A stretch of DNA of 24,586 nucleotides from a virus, in the IMG/VR virus record IMGVR_UViG_3300022200_005971, positions 1 to 24,586 of that record; one strand, 5' to 3'. Of the stretch, positions 6,288 to 24,118 are shown one piece after another. The position numbers and the translations under genes are program-made. The notes beneath the pieces were generated by a model, which made no database searches, was not told where the DNA came from, and saw only the letters and a program-made list of their open reading frames with translations. Numbering within the stretch: the first letter of the stretch is position 1; every line of letters begins with the position of its first letter.

Positions 6288-6340
6288 GGACGGTTGTGTA
6301 ATGGATGTTAGTAAAACTATTTATCTAATATTCAAAACAC

Positions 6341-7510
6341 ATGGCTAACTCAATTAGTGCATTGAATCCTGAGAATTGGAAACCGATTGTACAGGATTAC
6401 CTTAACAACATGCTTGTTGCTATGGATATTGCGAATACTAAATGTGTTCCTTATCTTAACGACGGTGATGCTGTTAACTTCCCTTATGTAAGTGATGTTC
6501 GTGTACAAGATCTTGTACAAGGTACTGACCTTACTATTGACGCCATCAGTGCTACACAAGACACACTGACTGTTGATCAATCTCGTGCTGTGACTTTCCA
6601 AATTCATCCAGTACAAGAAAAGCAAGCTAAAGCTAAGTATGGTCTAGACCTTGCTTACCAAGCTGCTTACCAACTAAGAAACGACATCGACCAAGCTGTA
6701 ATCGTTTCTGGTGTAAACAACGCTGCTACAGAACTAGAATCTGCTGCTGTTACTACTTCTGCATCTAGCATTTACGAATACATGACAGAAGCTAGATCAT
6801 CTTTAGTTCGTGCTAACGCTGGTGACGGTGAACATTTCGCTGTTATGCCACCTGAAGAAGTTGCTAAGCTTGAACAATCATTCGTTGCTAATGGTTTCGT
6901 TCTAGGCGATAAAACACTTGAAAGAGGATTCCAAGGTTCAGTTAACGGATTCAAGGTTTACGCTTCAAACAACACTCCATCACAAGTTGTTCTTGCGATG
7001 GGAACACAACCAACAAACGGAGACACATTTACTTTGTTCGGTATTACATGGACATGGGTAACTGATGGTACTGCTGCAAACCCAGGAGAAATCAATATCG
7101 GTGCTAACGTAGCTGATGCTAAGGCTATCCTTAAGACAGCTCTTAATGGAACTACTCCACCTTCTGCTGGTGATTACGTTCAAGTTTCAACTGATAGCAG
7201 AAGAAAACTACAAAACGCTCAACTTGAAGCTGCTACTTTCTCAGGAGACAACATGACAATTACTGCTTACGGTAGAATGTCACCTGCTGAAACTTTCACA
7301 GCTGCTGGCAATGTTTTCGGAGATGAAGAGACAAGCATCCTATTCGGACGTTCTGGTGCTATCTCTCTAGGTCTTCAAATGCAACCTGAGCTATACATCA
7401 GAGACCAAGAAGCAAACATTGGAAAGAACTACATTACACACACATTGTACGGTGTAGCTACTTTCGAAAGAGACAAACAAAGATTGGTAACTCTACCAGT
7501 TGTTTACTAA
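6341..7510 (+). CDS. Major capsid protein with an inserted beta domain
   Basis: A 389-residue protein after the scaffold, expected to form the head shell in an HK97-like fold. The N-terminal part (1-213), with DAVNFPYVSDV, a helical segment around 100-125 and the GFQGSVNGFKVYASNN stretch (197-211), and the C-terminal part (335-389, LFGRSGAISLGLQ then TFERDKQRLVTLPV) resemble coat proteins of short-tailed phages. Between them, about residues 214-335, lies a beta-rich insert (GDTFTLFGITWTWV, then a helix VADAKAILKTALNG). This resembles the small structural domain found inserted in or appended to many phage capsid proteins and would project from the shell. C-ending codons (AAC, TTC, TAC) are frequent compared with the terminase gene, as expected for high expression. 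Confidence 0.88.
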   Translation: MANSISALNPENWKPIVQDYLNNMLVAMDIANTKCVPYLNDGDAVNFPYVSDVRVQDLVQGTDLTIDAISATQDTLTVDQSRAVTFQIHPVQEKQAKAKYGLDLAYQAAYQLRNDIDQAVIVSGVNNAATELESAAVTTSASSIYEYMTEARSSLVRANAGDGEHFAVMPPEEVAKLEQSFVANGFVLGDKTLERGFQGSVNGFKVYASNNTPSQVVLAMGTQPTNGDTFTLFGITWTWVTDGTAANPGEINIGANVADAKAILKTALNGTTPPSAGDYVQVSTDSRRKLQNAQLEAATFSGDNMTITAYGRMSPAETFTAAGNVFGDEETSILFGRSGAISLGLQMQPELYIRDQEANIGKNYITHTLYGVATFERDKQRLVTLPVVY

Positions 7511-7523
7511 CAGGTAGTTAATC

Positions 7524-7577
7524 TCTTTTAGGCGGGTGGGGGTGGATTAAGTTCTACGCCCGCCCATAAAGGGATTA
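7524..7577 (+). promoter_or_regulatory. Structured RNA element, copy 1 (after the capsid gene)
   Basis: Lies 13 bases past the capsid stop. GGCGGGTG (7531-7538) pairs with CGCCCGCC (7557-7564); a GGGG bulge follows (7539-7542), then a short upper stem TGGA/TCTA (7543-7546 and 7553-7556) and a 6-nt loop. It is preceded by CTCTTTTA and followed by CATAAAGGGATTA (7565-7577). No T-run follows, so it is not a standard intrinsic terminator. A second copy with the same architecture lies at 8081-8134. Confidence 0.65.
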
Positions 7578-7603
7578 AGCCTAAATAACTAACTAAATTA
7601 AAT

Positions 7604-8080
7604 ATGACAGCAAAAAATCCACAACTAGCAGATAAAATCATTATCAGAGAGCAGCTTGGAGGGGGAATTTATTTCTCAGACGACACAGCAACACCTATTT
7701 TAGGGGTCGTTGAGGGTGGTAGTGGTGAAGTAGGGCTAGCATTAGAGCTTGACCATATCCAAACTGGATCAATCATTACTAACAACCTTCCTCTATATAT
7801 TGGAGGAGTCACAACAGTGACAGGGGCAGGAGCGATTGCTACCAATTCTTCTGTTGTAGCGGTTGTGACTACTGGTGCAGATGCTTTAACTCTAGGGGAT
7901 GGTGATCAAGGGCAATTTATGTATATTTACATGAAAAACTTTGGGGGTGATGGCACTCTTACTCCAACAAATCTATTGGGAGGAACGGCAATTACTTTTA
8001 GTGCTGTAGGTGACACAGCTCAATTATTTTTTGACGGATCAGATTGGGTAATGATGGGAGGTAGCGCAACGCTAGCGTAA
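7604..8080 (+). CDS. Probable head decoration or minor virion protein
   Basis: A 158-residue protein rich in Gly, Thr, Ala and Val with alternating beta-like segments (for example QGQFMYIYMKNFGGDG, then TAQLFFDGSDWVMMGG near the C-terminus). No catalytic motif or membrane segment; no family recognised. Its place directly after the capsid gene, with a leader carrying one conserved hairpin and a trailer carrying the other, suggests an abundant capsid-associated product such as a decoration (cement) protein. The closing 'ADTAQLFFDGSDW'-type beta-strands also occur in small phage head proteins, but this is a weak resemblance. The start is preceded by TAACTAACTAAATTAAAT and has no Shine-Dalgarno sequence. 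Confidence 0.65.
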   Translation: MTAKNPQLADKIIIREQLGGGIYFSDDTATPILGVVEGGSGEVGLALELDHIQTGSIITNNLPLYIGGVTTVTGAGAIATNSSVVAVVTTGADALTLGDGDQGQFMYIYMKNFGGDGTLTPTNLLGGTAITFSAVGDTAQLFFDGSDWVMMGGSATLA

Positions 8081-8134
8081 TTCTTTTTAGGCGGGTGGGG
8101 CTAGCTTCGGCTAGGCTCGCTCATAAAGGGATTA
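8081..8134 (+). promoter_or_regulatory. Structured RNA element, copy 2
   Basis: Begins at the stop codon of the preceding gene. GGCGGGT (8090-8096) pairs with GCTCGCT (8115-8121) through wobbles; the same GGGG bulge follows (8097-8100), then a 5-bp upper stem CTAGC/GCTAG capped by a TTCG tetraloop (8106-8109). It is preceded by TTCTTTTTA and followed by CATAAAGGGATTA (8122-8134), identical to copy 1. The upper stem has a wholly different sequence from copy 1 yet still pairs, which argues that structure is under selection. Confidence 0.65.
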
Positions 8135-8164
8135 TGGCGATAATAACTAAATAAACTAAATATT

Positions 8165-9151
8165 ATGCCAGGAGGACTAATAAATTCTAACCAACAAGCG
8201 CAAGTTTCAGAGCAACGAAGAATGCCAGTTGACAATGTTGGTTCAGATTCAATTCAAACAATTAGCGGCGAAACTTTAAGCCTATACTATTACAACGCTG
8301 GTGTGCTAACTGCTGATGCAGGTCAAGCAGCTGGAACAGTAGTTGTTGCTAAGTTCGCCAACAGAAACATTAAGAACGCGCTAGGGGATGTTACAGGTAC
8401 ACACCTTGATACTTCTGTGTCTTTCACTACAGGGACAATTTTTACTGAGTTGGTTGAGTTTCCAGCTAAAGTGGCTGAAACATGGGATAGAGCAGAAGGA
8501 GATACTAAGGCTGAAGCTATTACTGATGGATTCACAAATGGTCAATACTGTATTGATCACAGAACGGGTACGTTGTATGGGGTTAAGGCAACTAATGGAA
8601 CAAGCGACACAGTTTCTTATAAGATCGAAACAAGTGCTTCTTCTTCCCCTAGTGGGGTCCCTTCTGTAGTAAAGATAGTTGACGGAGATGGTGATTTTGC
8701 TTCAGTAACAACAGGTGGTAGTCTAAATGTCCAATCAGACGCTTACGATTCAGGGACAGGGTCAGACAAGGTTTATAATATCAACCCTCTAAACGAGCTT
8801 CACTTTGAGGAAACCTTAGCGGACGTAACAAATGGTACAGATGGAACATACTACTATTATGTAGATATGGACGGAGCTAAACATTTCTCAGCTCAATTAG
8901 AGTTGAGTGGAGGTTCTGGTACTTGCACAGTAACTGTTGAGGCTACGAATCAAGATGACGGGACAGCAGCTGCTTCTTGTGCTTACCAAGATGTAACTAA
9001 CGGACTGTTTGGTGCAGCTTCTTACACGGCTAGTGATTTCTTGATTGCTGACACTGCGATGAGCTTCAAGTATATCCGTTATAAAGTTGTTGCTAGTACA
9101 GCTGCAGCAAATGACGCAGACTGGACTATATATCATAAAAAACAATACTAA
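8165..9151 (+). CDS. Beta-rich virion protein, possible head fibre or decoration protein
   Basis: Encodes 328 residues with no recognised family name. The sequence is beta-rich throughout: an N-terminal SGETLSLYYYNAGVLTADAG-type strand region, a central ITDGFTNGQYCIDHRTGTLYGVKAT segment (about residues 120-145), which resembles a common phage structural motif 'G..Y.ID..TG.LYG', and a C-terminal jelly-roll-like part from about 205 (YYYYVDMDGAKHFSAQLELS to YIRYKVVAS). No signal peptide or catalytic motif. It is likely a surface structure on the head or at the head-tail junction. The start leader is A/T-rich (ACTAAATATT) and lacks a Shine-Dalgarno sequence. The stop overlaps the next start (TAATG). 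Confidence 0.7.
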   Translation: MPGGLINSNQQAQVSEQRRMPVDNVGSDSIQTISGETLSLYYYNAGVLTADAGQAAGTVVVAKFANRNIKNALGDVTGTHLDTSVSFTTGTIFTELVEFPAKVAETWDRAEGDTKAEAITDGFTNGQYCIDHRTGTLYGVKATNGTSDTVSYKIETSASSSPSGVPSVVKIVDGDGDFASVTTGGSLNVQSDAYDSGTGSDKVYNINPLNELHFEETLADVTNGTDGTYYYYVDMDGAKHFSAQLELSGGSGTCTVTVEATNQDDGTAAASCAYQDVTNGLFGAASYTASDFLIADTAMSFKYIRYKVVASTAAANDADWTIYHKKQY

Positions 9152-18194: not shown

Positions 18195-18222
18195 AAATAT
18201 AAGACAACTAACTAAATAAAAC

Positions 18223-20715
18223 ATGGCAATAAAAACTAACAAGTATTCCGCCTTAACGAAGAAAGCCAATCCTAACGGCAGTGTTAAGCTTGGAAACACT
18301 ACTTACGGGTACAAACCTAAGAGGAAAGGTAAAGACACTTCTAACGCGAAGCCTGTTGATTTGCCAGAGATTGGAACGCCTGAGGGTATTGACACTACAG
18401 TTGGTGGGAAGAAGGTGACTACGGGGGCAATGCCAGGCATGTATGTTGATGCTAAGGGGAATACTATAGATACGACTAATGTGAGTGGCGTGGCTACTGG
18501 GGGGTTACTTGCAGGTGAAACCAACGAAGAATATAATTCTAGACTTGGTTTAGGACCAAACGATCCAGGTTACAGAAGATCAGCTCCAGGTTCAACACCA
18601 GCTGAAGACTTTGCTTTTAAAGATGTAGGAGAGGAAGCATTTTATCGTGTAAGTGGGGAGGTTGATAAGACAGCTCAAATGGCTACTGATCTAGGGTTTG
18701 AGAGCTATAGCGCGTTGCCTACTAACTTGAAGGACTTTGTTGACCAATTTATTGAACAACAACAAAAATCAGACTTAGCGATGGCTGAGTACGAGAAGTC
18801 GGTTGCTGATATCTTAGATGAACGTAGTATTGAGCAAACAAGAACAGCTGGTGCTAGCCAGGCAGCTGCAACTGAGGCTTCTTTGCTAAGTGGTAGAGAA
18901 GGGTTTGTAGGAGGAACAGAAATTGGAGCAGTTAAACAGTTTAAGGATCTAATTGTTACTGAAATAGACTCAGCGCAAAAGAGAGTTGATCTAGCTAAAG
19001 CTCAAAGAGTTAAAGCTTTAGAAGATCTTAAGAGGGCGCAAGACAGACAAGATTTTGATGCAGCAGAGACTATTAAAGGACGTATAGCGCAAGCTGAGGC
19101 AGCGATCAACGCAGAAACGACTAACATGATCGAGCTAGAGCAAAGAGGTGCTCAGATCGCTTTAGAAGAGTTTGCTACGTTAAGTGCTGATCAGAGGGCT
19201 AGCTACAGTACTTTCCAGAACTTGATGGAAACAGGAGTAGTAATGGATATGCCTTCACTGCTTAGTATGTCTAATAGTTTAGGGTTACCAGCTGATGTTG
19301 TTTATTCAGCTTATGCAGGTATGCAAGCAATTAGAGATGATAAGAGTTTGTCAGTAGAAGAAAAGAGGATTGGTATTGAGCAACAAATGAATCAGTTACG
19401 CGATTATCAGTTAGGTTTGAGTAGTGCTACTGCTAAGAAGGTTGATGATTTCTTAAAGCTTTCACAGTCTGGGAACTATACAGCTGAGCAATTACAATCC
19501 TTTGCTGTAGCGATGGATATTCCAAATGATCAGAACCCAGTTTGGATGGCTGAGCAAAGGAAACTGGCTGCTGAAGCTAAGATAGCTGAGGCTGAAGCTA
19601 ATGGTCAGTTTATTTCTCCAATGGAACGTCTAGAGTACGCAGCTGCTTCTTGGGAATATTTACAGGCTACAGGACAAGCAGGAGTGTATAAACCAACAGA
19701 TTCTAAATATGCAGTATCAGCTACTGCTGATGGAGGGATTAGAGTGGGGGTTGAAGCTGGTGATAGATACGCAAGAGGGCAATGCGGGGAGTTTGTAAAT
19801 GACGTATTAGGCATAGGTGTAGGAGACAAGTTGTCAGACAAAACTAAGTTTATAGATCGATCTATTGGGGTTCCTCAGCCAGGGATGGCTTTTGTTATGA
19901 CCGCAAACGGAAGTGCTGCGCAGTATGGTCACATTGGGATTGTGGAGAGTGTGAACCCAGACGGGACATTTAATACTGTTGAATCTAATGCTAATGGTGA
20001 CGAAAAAATTACTAGGGAAACTAGAAGTATTACGGAAGTCCTTGGCTTTATTAAGCCTAATAAGTCAGAGTTTATTGGAGGGGTCGAGCCAGGGGTAGAG
20101 GGAACAGGTTATACTGATGCTCAACTTGCATTAATGAGGGATTTAAAAGGGGAAAAGATGAGTAGCACAGTGGTCTCTGAGCTAGAAAAAGCAGGTTTGA
20201 CCACACAAGATTTAAGCCTGTTTGACCCAGCGACGGCTCCAATTACTACTGAAGAAAAGGATCAAGTATATGGTGTATTAGAGGCAATTGAAAGATTGAA
20301 AAATCATGAAGGATTTAACAGTGCCGTAGGGTTCTCTGCTCAAGAGCTTTTCTTGCCAGGGGACATAAAAGGAGAGGATGGTTTTATATCTGGTACAGCT
20401 GCCGCAGACTTCAAAGCTAAATTTGATTCGTTTAGAGATAGCTTGGTGTTGCCAATGCTTGATCAGCTTAAAGGGGCTATGTCAGACAATGACATCAAGT
20501 TCATTAGGAATGCCGCGACAGCCTTGTCTTTGACTCAAAGTGAAGATGCATTCTTAGAGGAGCTAGATAATATCAAGGAGACGTACGAAAAAATCTTGCA
20601 AGATAAGGGTGTTATTGATTCAGAGACATCTACTGTGGACTTGTCACCAGACGAGCTCGCTGACAAATACAACCCTGTTAAAAACAGTTTAACTAGTAAA
20701 TATATAACTAAATAA
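18223..20715 (+). CDS. Large internal virion protein with CHAP peptidoglycan hydrolase domain
   Basis: An 830-residue protein. The first ~120 residues are basic then Gly/Thr/Pro-rich and probably disordered. Long helices and coiled coil span about 140-480 (heptad-like VDLAKAQRVKALEDLKRAQD at 255-274, and IAEAEANG). A CHAP domain lies at about 513-612: GQCGEFV at 519-525 with the catalytic Cys at 521, YGHIGIVESV at 568-577 with His at 570, and ESNANGD at 587-593 with Glu587 and Asn589. The C-terminal 200 residues are helical. CHAP enzymes cleave peptidoglycan as amidase or endopeptidase. As part of a long structural protein it probably acts during DNA injection rather than lysis. It precedes another long helical protein. 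Confidence 0.8.
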   Translation: MAIKTNKYSALTKKANPNGSVKLGNTTYGYKPKRKGKDTSNAKPVDLPEIGTPEGIDTTVGGKKVTTGAMPGMYVDAKGNTIDTTNVSGVATGGLLAGETNEEYNSRLGLGPNDPGYRRSAPGSTPAEDFAFKDVGEEAFYRVSGEVDKTAQMATDLGFESYSALPTNLKDFVDQFIEQQQKSDLAMAEYEKSVADILDERSIEQTRTAGASQAAATEASLLSGREGFVGGTEIGAVKQFKDLIVTEIDSAQKRVDLAKAQRVKALEDLKRAQDRQDFDAAETIKGRIAQAEAAINAETTNMIELEQRGAQIALEEFATLSADQRASYSTFQNLMETGVVMDMPSLLSMSNSLGLPADVVYSAYAGMQAIRDDKSLSVEEKRIGIEQQMNQLRDYQLGLSSATAKKVDDFLKLSQSGNYTAEQLQSFAVAMDIPNDQNPVWMAEQRKLAAEAKIAEAEANGQFISPMERLEYAAASWEYLQATGQAGVYKPTDSKYAVSATADGGIRVGVEAGDRYARGQCGEFVNDVLGIGVGDKLSDKTKFIDRSIGVPQPGMAFVMTANGSAAQYGHIGIVESVNPDGTFNTVESNANGDEKITRETRSITEVLGFIKPNKSEFIGGVEPGVEGTGYTDAQLALMRDLKGEKMSSTVVSELEKAGLTTQDLSLFDPATAPITTEEKDQVYGVLEAIERLKNHEGFNSAVGFSAQELFLPGDIKGEDGFISGTAAADFKAKFDSFRDSLVLPMLDQLKGAMSDNDIKFIRNAATALSLTQSEDAFLEELDNIKETYEKILQDKGVIDSETSTVDLSPDELADKYNPVKNSLTSKYITK

Positions 20716-22976: not shown

Positions 22977-23591
22977 ATGCCTCTTATAGCTGATTTTGTA
23001 GATTACGAACCTGCCAAGGTTTACGACCAGGGCAAAACTGGAACATGTGTAGCGCATGCGTTCTTTACTCTTCTATCAGAACATGTTCAACAAAAGTATA
23101 AGAAGGAAGTAGAGTTTGATTTCTACAAATATCATGCCGAGATGGAGAAGCATCGTAACGGCAAGCTGAGGGTTGAATATCTCTGCGAGAAAGCAGTTAG
23201 TGATGGATTCCTGACAAAGACAGGTGAGCTTGTTAAAATCGCCTCATATCGAAAGTTTGGGGCATGGAGGAGCTGGGATTTCTTGTGCGAGCATATTCAA
23301 TCGCCTAATGCTGGACCGATGCTATTCGCGGTCAATAGATACGCAGGGCATGACTTGTCACCGAAAGACACAGATATAATTGAGATGCCTACAGAGGAAC
23401 AGTTTAAAAAGAAGAAGAAGAGTGGTCACATGATGATATTGAGAGGGTTCGATAACCAAGCTAAGTGGCTGCGCTGGCAAAACAGCTGGGAGGGAGGAGA
23501 AGACTTAAACGTGAAGTGGTGCCCCTGGGAAGTGTTTCAGAAGATAAATAAATATTGTTATTATATTAAGAATGTAACCATATCAGAATGA
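22977..23591 (+). CDS. Papain-like cysteine peptidase (C1-like)
   Basis: A 204-residue protein whose sequence keeps the papain-type catalytic layout: DQGKTGTCVAHAFF (17-30) with the oxyanion Gln18 and nucleophile Cys24, GHMMILRGFD (150-159) with His151, and WLRWQNSWEGG (164-174) with Asn169. The order, spacing and flanking glycines fit the C1 family ('QG.CGSCWAF', 'GHA..I.GY', 'W...NSWG'). There is no signal peptide or propeptide, and it is shorter than typical papain enzymes. It may cut a virion protein, a host target or a peptide in peptidoglycan; neighbouring peptidases favour the wall, but this is inference. The stop is TGA and overlaps the next ATG. Confidence 0.75.
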   Translation: MPLIADFVDYEPAKVYDQGKTGTCVAHAFFTLLSEHVQQKYKKEVEFDFYKYHAEMEKHRNGKLRVEYLCEKAVSDGFLTKTGELVKIASYRKFGAWRSWDFLCEHIQSPNAGPMLFAVNRYAGHDLSPKDTDIIEMPTEEQFKKKKKSGHMMILRGFDNQAKWLRWQNSWEGGEDLNVKWCPWEVFQKINKYCYYIKNVTISE

Positions 23592-24118
23592 AAGAAGAAT
23601 GGCGAGATATAGAAGGGTTAGAGGGGTTTTACCAGGTTAGTAGCGCGGGGCGCGTCAGATCCTTCAATAAGGCTAAGGGCAAAGATGTTAAGGGAAAGCC
23701 ACGAATCCTATATACGAAGGCGAACAATAGCGGGTATTTATTGGTGTGGACGTGTCTCTATGGACGTAAAAAAGCATTAACCATTCATAGGCTGGTGGCA
23801 AAAGCCTTTGTATCTAACCCCGAGGGGAAAGAGTTTGTGAATCACAAGAATGGAGTGAAAACTGACAACAGGGTTGATAACCTTGAATGGTGTACCAGGC
23901 GTGAGAATATGGCTCACGCTCATGCTAAAGGGCTTGCGCCGCGATACGGAGTAAAGAACTCTCAGGCGAAATTAACCCCTCACGCCGTTAAGCGCATGAG
24001 GCTTATGCGCGAAATCTCCCCGAGCATGTCTTATAAAAACATAGGCGCACTGTTTGGGGTAGGGGAGGGGGCTGCCAGAGATGCGATTCTTAAAATTAAA
24101 TGGTCTCACATTCAATAA
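23588..24118 (+). CDS. HNH homing-type endonuclease with NUMOD4 domain
   Basis: A 176-residue protein. NUMOD4 at the N-terminus (about 3-50: EEWRDIEGLEGFYQVSSAGRVRS) is followed by an HNH_3-type nuclease core: IHRLVAKAF (66-74, His67), NHKNGVKTDNRVDNLEWC (85-102; Asn85, His86, Asn88 and Asn94, and the terminal NLEW). The C-terminal third (about 120-176) has a helix-turn-helix-like DNA-binding segment (SYKNIGALFGVGEGAARDAI). It is probably a free-standing homing endonuclease that cuts intronless relatives at a nearby site and spreads by repair. The start overlaps the preceding stop by one base pair set (ATGA). Some stretches (GCGCGGGGCGCGTC) are richer in GC than their neighbours, consistent with recent arrival. 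Confidence 0.88.
   Translation: MKEEWRDIEGLEGFYQVSSAGRVRSFNKAKGKDVKGKPRILYTKANNSGYLLVWTCLYGRKKALTIHRLVAKAFVSNPEGKEFVNHKNGVKTDNRVDNLEWCTRRENMAHAHAKGLAPRYGVKNSQAKLTPHAVKRMRLMREISPSMSYKNIGALFGVGEGAARDAILKIKWSHIQ

Follow-up and report, generated by a model that had tools for sequence, protein, structure and literature searches.

A covariation-backed RNA hairpin recurs between virion genes in a group of related uncultivated phages

Comparative sequence evidence indicates that two long hairpins in the structural operon of an uncultivated phage are real, conserved RNA structures, common to at least six related uncultured phages. By analogy with known systems, the element most likely marks sites of intergenic cutting or protection of the message, and among the roles originally proposed for it we would prefer processing or stabilisation. 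The DNA that we analysed, here called the window, is the single IMG/VR virus record IMGVR_UViG_3300022200_005971 (24,586 bases), which also encodes a terminase. The first copy lies in the gap between the capsid gene and a 158-aa gene, and the second between the 158-aa gene and a 328-aa gene:

6341-7510: capsid gene, matching the major head protein profiles phrog_267 and phrog_283
7518-7578, plus strand: element copy 1, complete hairpin
7518-7528, plus strand: copy 1 outer stem 5' arm UUAAUCUCUUU (from folding; covarying helix 1)
7531-7537, plus strand: copy 1 lower stem 5' arm GGCGGGU (comparative register)
7538-7541, plus strand: copy 1 GGGG, unpaired in the comparative register
7542-7557, plus strand: copy 1 upper stem GUGGA/UCUAC with the 6-nt loop UUAAGU (from folding)
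7558-7564, plus strand: copy 1 lower stem 3' arm GCCCGCC (comparative register)
7568-7578, plus strand: copy 1 outer stem 3' arm AAAGGGAUUAA (from folding and covariation)
7579-7603, plus strand: A/U-rich leader of the 7604 gene, lacking a Shine-Dalgarno (SD) site (context, outside the element)
7604-8080: 158-aa gene, stop codon at 8078-8080
8078-8134, plus strand: element copy 2, complete hairpin
8078-8087, plus strand: copy 2 outer stem 5' arm UAAUUCUUUU, containing the stop codon of the 158-aa gene (8078-8080)
8090-8096, plus strand: copy 2 lower stem 5' arm GGCGGGU (comparative register)
8097-8100, plus strand: copy 2 GGGG, unpaired in the comparative register
8101-8114, plus strand: copy 2 upper stem CUAGC/GCUAG with a UUCG tetraloop (from folding)
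8115-8121, plus strand: copy 2 lower stem 3' arm GCUCGCU (comparative register)
8125-8134, plus strand: copy 2 outer stem 3' arm AAAGGGAUUA (from folding and covariation)
8135-8164, plus strand: A/U-rich SD-less leader of the 8165 gene (context)
8165-9151: 328-aa gene, downstream of element copy 2

Each copy folds as a single long hairpin of 20–27 bp that runs, from the outside in, through an outer stem, a short junction, a lower stem, a GGGG present on the 5' side only, an upper stem and a loop. The two-copy architecture of the original prediction was confirmed: the shared blocks GGCGGGTGGGG (7531-7541 and 8090-8100, both on the plus strand) and CATAAAGGGATTA (7565-7577 and 8122-8134) each occur exactly twice in the window, and both copies fold more stably than dinucleotide shuffles (z-scores of -5.4 for copy 1 and -5.2 for copy 2, with none of 200 shuffles as good). 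Among 62-nt segments of the window, none is as stable as copy 1. As had been described, the upper stems and loops differ (a 6-nt loop in one, UUCG in the other), and the 3' arm of the lower stem varies yet still pairs, being GCCCGCC in copy 1 and GCUCGCU in copy 2. The T-rich segment that had been taken for a lead-in is indeed common to both copies, but it is more than that: it pairs with AAAGGGATTA to form an outer stem, previously overlooked, of 11 bp in copy 1 and 10 bp in copy 2, and in copy 2 the stop codon forms the 5' end of this stem.

We gathered related contigs from viral contigs by searches with the capsid and the downstream protein, and then inspected their intergenic gaps. Outside this genome the element was present in six related uncultivated phages, L014 (also L015), L018 (the contig of L006 and L039; also L040), L023, L029 (the contig of L045), L041 and L042, and a truncated copy consisting of the first 27 nt stands at the cut end of L034, directly behind the capsid gene. 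A covariance model built from all copies found one true copy per related contig, even in records of 35–39 kb, and DNA pattern scans of the viral contigs gave no copies beyond the relatives already found. Many related contigs are without the element, which is therefore not essential to the gene order; in L024, L027 and L031 the corresponding gap holds hairpins of 20–23 bp that are unrelated in sequence.

An alignment made with MAFFT comprised eight sequences only, the two window copies and the six relatives. RNAalifold recovered the outer and lower stems from it with two-sided changes at 12 of 18 pairs, and direct counting gave 92.8% of cells paired and both sides changed in 11 of 16 pairs. The covariation score was 0.533 against 0.301 ± 0.035 for shuffled alignments, none of 500 of which reached it, and it collapsed to 0.21 or less in slid registers; the proposal of a selected RNA structure with compensatory changes thus held. 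With the window omitted, the six relatives alone scored 0.471 against 0.325 (0/500 shuffles), so that compensatory pairing, and not mere sequence conservation, is present among them. When a model built from the relatives alone was searched against 206 kb including T7, the two window copies were its best matches (E values of 2.2e-7 and 1.8e-4), and no comparable match was found in T7, in the Manatee Spring phage or in relatives without the element. Whole-gap folds of all eight copies had z-scores from -3.0 to -6.1, and the 20–27 bp size is kept in all of them despite wholly different upper stems. Several loops are tetraloops of the kind that stabilises RNA: UUCG in window copy 2 and L014, GCAA in L018 and GAAA in L029. 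Conservation extends to the G-rich strand and the AAAGGG arm, and the tail varies together with its pairing partner (L014, AATGGAGT; L018, AAGAGAGATTA). G-U pairs are frequent, occurring in four of the eight sequences at one pair. The full model scored 52–72 bits on the sense strand and 14–23 on the antisense strand, a bias that is expected of a signal acting as RNA.

The pairing of the inner stem deserves separate consideration. Minimum-energy folding prefers, by 3–4 kcal/mol, an inner stem slipped by three bases (GGGUGGG/CCCGCCC), in which a 5/2 internal loop takes the place of the GGGG bulge. The comparative data favour instead the lower stem with a GGGG bulge that was first proposed: the register GGCGGGU/GCCCGCC (alignment columns 15–21 with 49–55) had a covariation score of 0.673 with 10 two-sided cells and was matched by none of 500 shuffles, whereas the slipped register scored 0.434 with 4 two-sided cells and was matched by 34 of 500. 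Because covariation favours the unslipped stem, evolution seems to have kept the pairing in which GGGG stays free. The unpaired GGGG could be a recognised bulge, or the RNA could alternate between two registers.

With respect to the genes, the base of the hairpin is placed between -3 and +13 nt relative to the stop codon in all eight copies, and 17–30 nt of A/U-rich, SD-less leader separate the hairpin from the next ATG. The stop codon falls within the outer stem in window copy 2, L041 and L042 and outside it in most others. The next gene is a homologue of the 328-aa gene for window copy 2, L014, L018, L023, L029 and L042; in L041 the element stands one gene earlier and the homologue one gene later. 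Most of these homologues carry SEQRRMPVD at the N terminus. Copy 1 is exceptional in preceding an unrelated gene; behind the capsid gene it is an extra copy, its sole parallel being the truncated one in L034. The usual partner of the element is the downstream gene of the 328-aa family, not the capsid gene. The original view that the hairpins sit only around the two genes expected to be produced most abundantly therefore finds no support in that form, since relatives have one copy per contig and it is tied to the gap before the 328-aa homologue.

SD-like sites are found at almost no gene of the window, whose leaders resemble AACTAAATAAAATATG, and the host is probably one that does not rely on SD. 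We place the A/U-rich leader outside the element, because most genes of the phage share such leaders, including one in a hairpin-free gap (18195-18222). A special ribosome-binding site was rejected as an identity for the element: most window genes lack SD-like sites, and the A/U-rich leader also occurs without a hairpin. The stop codons of the window are TAA in 18 cases, TAG in 4 and TGA in 1. A DNA search of annotated phages with 7480-8200 gave no match; among the same phages neither the 8165 protein nor the protein in the portal position had a relative, and relatives of the capsid were distant only. A prophage-based search for the host, in which genome contigs were compared with capsid alignments, found no relative. 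The predicted structure of the 328-aa protein (mean pLDDT 43.5) was too uncertain for use.

Other features of the window were noted in passing. A 26-nt inverted repeat with a 27-nt spacer and TAGACGGTGGG arms (889-967), of a stability near that of copy 1, lies upstream of the leftward gene 1-876. Repeated GTTACCTATCT / AGTAACTAAGTAAC units at 1088-1300, in a 0.6-kb non-coding stretch between divergent genes, are possibly an operator or a replication origin. A protein with NUMOD4 and HNH domains (23588-24118) is likely a homing endonuclease, and a large virion-like protein of 830 aa that contains a CHAP domain (18223-20715) is likely an injected lysin of the phage.

Two further RNA features emerged near the capsid gene. 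In relatives, a second, different conserved motif, absent from the window, lies immediately upstream of the first gene after the capsid gene, at these loci:

L018: 6173-6228
L020: 6213-6269
L009: 3172-3227
L025: 6226-6281
L031: 6205-6259
L030: 6215-6272
L023: 6230-6290

It is laid out as P1, a short bulge, CYRG, a hairpin with a G-rich loop, an unpaired CAAAxACA-like stretch, CUGG and P1'. Within the alignment 94% of cells are paired and covariation is 0.437 against 0.238 for shuffles, with slid controls at 0.135 or less; the loci searched had no Rfam match. Directly upstream of the capsid start codon there is also a hairpin of unrelated sequence, in the window (6288-6340) and in nearly all relatives (L003, L004, L018, L020, L009, L024, L025, L029 and L031), several with an AAAGG-like motif on the 5' side. 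This hairpin could bring a distant SD near the ATG, in the manner reportedly used by T4 gene 38.

We propose, tentatively and at close to an even chance, that the element is an intercistronic hairpin that sets mRNA ends, through host RNase III cleavage of the kind seen at T7 R sites, through a block to exonucleases, or both. A module of about 60 nt would lie between the stop codon of one virion gene and the 17–30 nt leader of the gene after it. Within the polycistronic late mRNA this module would adopt a duplex of roughly two turns, in which a 10-bp outer stem is followed by a lower stem, then by an asymmetric G-rich bulge and an upper stem that is often capped by a UUCG or GNRA loop. Cut by RNase III or stopping exonucleases, this duplex would permit the virion genes on its two sides to reach different levels. 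From the observed structure, conservation, position and absence of a U-tract we infer the cleavage or block to decay and the enzyme.

We favour this proposal because the size, internal asymmetry and intergenic place of the element resemble those of T7 RNase III sites. All eight copies are extended hairpins of about two turns between cistrons, with an asymmetric bulge or internal loop between the lower and the upper helix. No sequence match to T7 (L046) was found up to an E value of 10; homology to T7 R sites is not required for such a site to function. A search of three relatives and of T7 turned up no phage-encoded RNase III, and it is therefore the host enzyme that would act, as it does for T7. 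We folded in the same way the T7 gaps at what we take to be the positions of RNase III sites, and obtained intergenic hairpins of similar size; the clearest, at the presumed position of R4.7, has a small internal loop between its lower stem and an upper stem of 10 bp. Like the element, T7 R sites (R0.3 to R18.5, with R1.1 as the model case) are intercistronic structures of about 60 nt in which an asymmetric loop or bulge separates a lower from an upper stem; they stand before the next gene, occur more than once per genome and are conserved in architecture. Unlike them, the element has a G-rich 5' arm with a GGGG bulge, often a UUCG or GNRA loop, a place among structural genes and the capacity to include a stop codon, and there is no sequence similarity. 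The likeness is thus one of anatomy, and RNase III cleavage here would follow by inference. The T7 R1.1 site, an RNA of 60 nt, contains an asymmetric internal loop of 4/5 nt (PMC6121014). RNase III needs little primary sequence, and so the conserved G-rich strand and AAAGGG arm tell against a plain RNase III reading and hint at a specific binder.

The main rival is a regulator binding the G bulge: the hairpin may be an operator at which a phage or host protein recognises the unpaired GGGG and regulates how the downstream virion gene is translated or how stable its message is, perhaps through autoregulation. The conserved bulge is compatible with such an operator, covariation keeps GGGG unpaired against the stabler slipped pairing, and in window copy 2 and five relatives (L014, L018, L023, L029 and L042) the gene after the element belongs to a single homologous family. 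We nevertheless consider it unlikely, since copy 1 precedes an unrelated gene, the start region 17–30 nt downstream is left uncovered, the loop sequences are not conserved and the constant neighbour is explicable by synteny alone. For comparison, the T4 gene 43 operator is a hairpin about 40 bases upstream of the gene start, with 16–18 bases and a conserved loop, that extends over the ribosome-binding site (PMC3014915). The element, by contrast, has 20–27 bp and variable loops and ends 17–30 nt before the start. A bolder version, to which we assign a smaller probability, is a two-state RNA switch or phage-protein operator in which binding to the bulge would lock the RNA in the comparative register and regulate how the downstream virion gene is processed or expressed; it is suggested by the same retention of an unpaired GGGG against a stabler pairing. 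If true, it would be a previously undescribed class of regulatory RNA in phages that start translation without Shine-Dalgarno sites.

More doubtful is a site behind strongly expressed genes that partly attenuates transcription or makes it pause, placed like T7 Tphi behind gene 10. A GC-rich stem does stand directly behind the stop codon, and post-capsid gaps of some relatives (L003 and L029) hold hairpins with short T-rich tails. Against this, the 8 bases after the stem contain 0–3 T in all eight copies, the 3' flank is A-rich and itself paired, and the element is absent from the output of a terminator scan. Tphi lies behind the major capsid gene, as only copy 1 does, and has a T run after its stem, which no copy of the element has. 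An intrinsic terminator was rejected on the same grounds (no U-tract, no entry in the scan, a paired A-rich tail), in agreement with the original judgement that this is not a standard terminator.

We give still less credence to a translational element, in which a terminating ribosome would open an outer stem overlapping the stop codon and so couple or uncouple translation of the next gene. The stop codon does lie in the outer stem of window copy 2, L041 and L042, but most other copies have it outside the stem, genes lacking the element have leaders similar to those that follow it, and the whole genome is without SD sites. Action at the level of DNA, as a phage promoter (the tail resembles the T3/T7 core CTAAAGGGA), a recombination site or a protein-binding inverted repeat, is very improbable: the two window copies share CATAAAGGGATTA exactly, and L023 and L042 have almost the same sequence, but the tail changes with its pairing partner in L014 and L018, the frequent G-U pairs preserve RNA but not DNA symmetry, model scores are strongly strand-asymmetric, and no T7-type polymerase was detected in four relatives (PF00940 was absent from G001, G014, G015 and G018, records that are possibly incomplete, and was detected in the T7 positive control). 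A T7-type promoter was rejected on the last of these grounds and on the variation of the tail with its partner.

Among named RNAs, ARAGORN found no tRNA-like element, and no Rfam 15 family matched at the gathering threshold; relaxed thresholds gave only chance scores to eukaryotic snoRNA and miRNA families and Ocean-VII, far below gathering, which bears out the earlier impression that the shape belongs to no named family. T4 has stable intercistronic CUUCGG hairpins with UUCG loops between its genes. The element is likewise a stable intergenic phage hairpin, with UUCG in some copies only; it differs in its two helices, its outer stem and bulge and its conservation across genomes. We found no description of the element in the literature searched. 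Intercistronic hairpins in phage mRNA are known as a kind, and a family with an outer stem able to hold the stop codon and a conserved G bulge is undescribed in the sources searched.

Phages need very different amounts of adjacent virion proteins from one message. The element is a compact, covariation-backed RNA module, not in Rfam, and it turns up repeatedly in the structural operon of a poorly known group of phages, whose translation apparently begins independently of Shine-Dalgarno sites. Its covariance model can be used to trace it in other genomes, and it offers a defined object for testing how such phages set the ends of their mRNAs.
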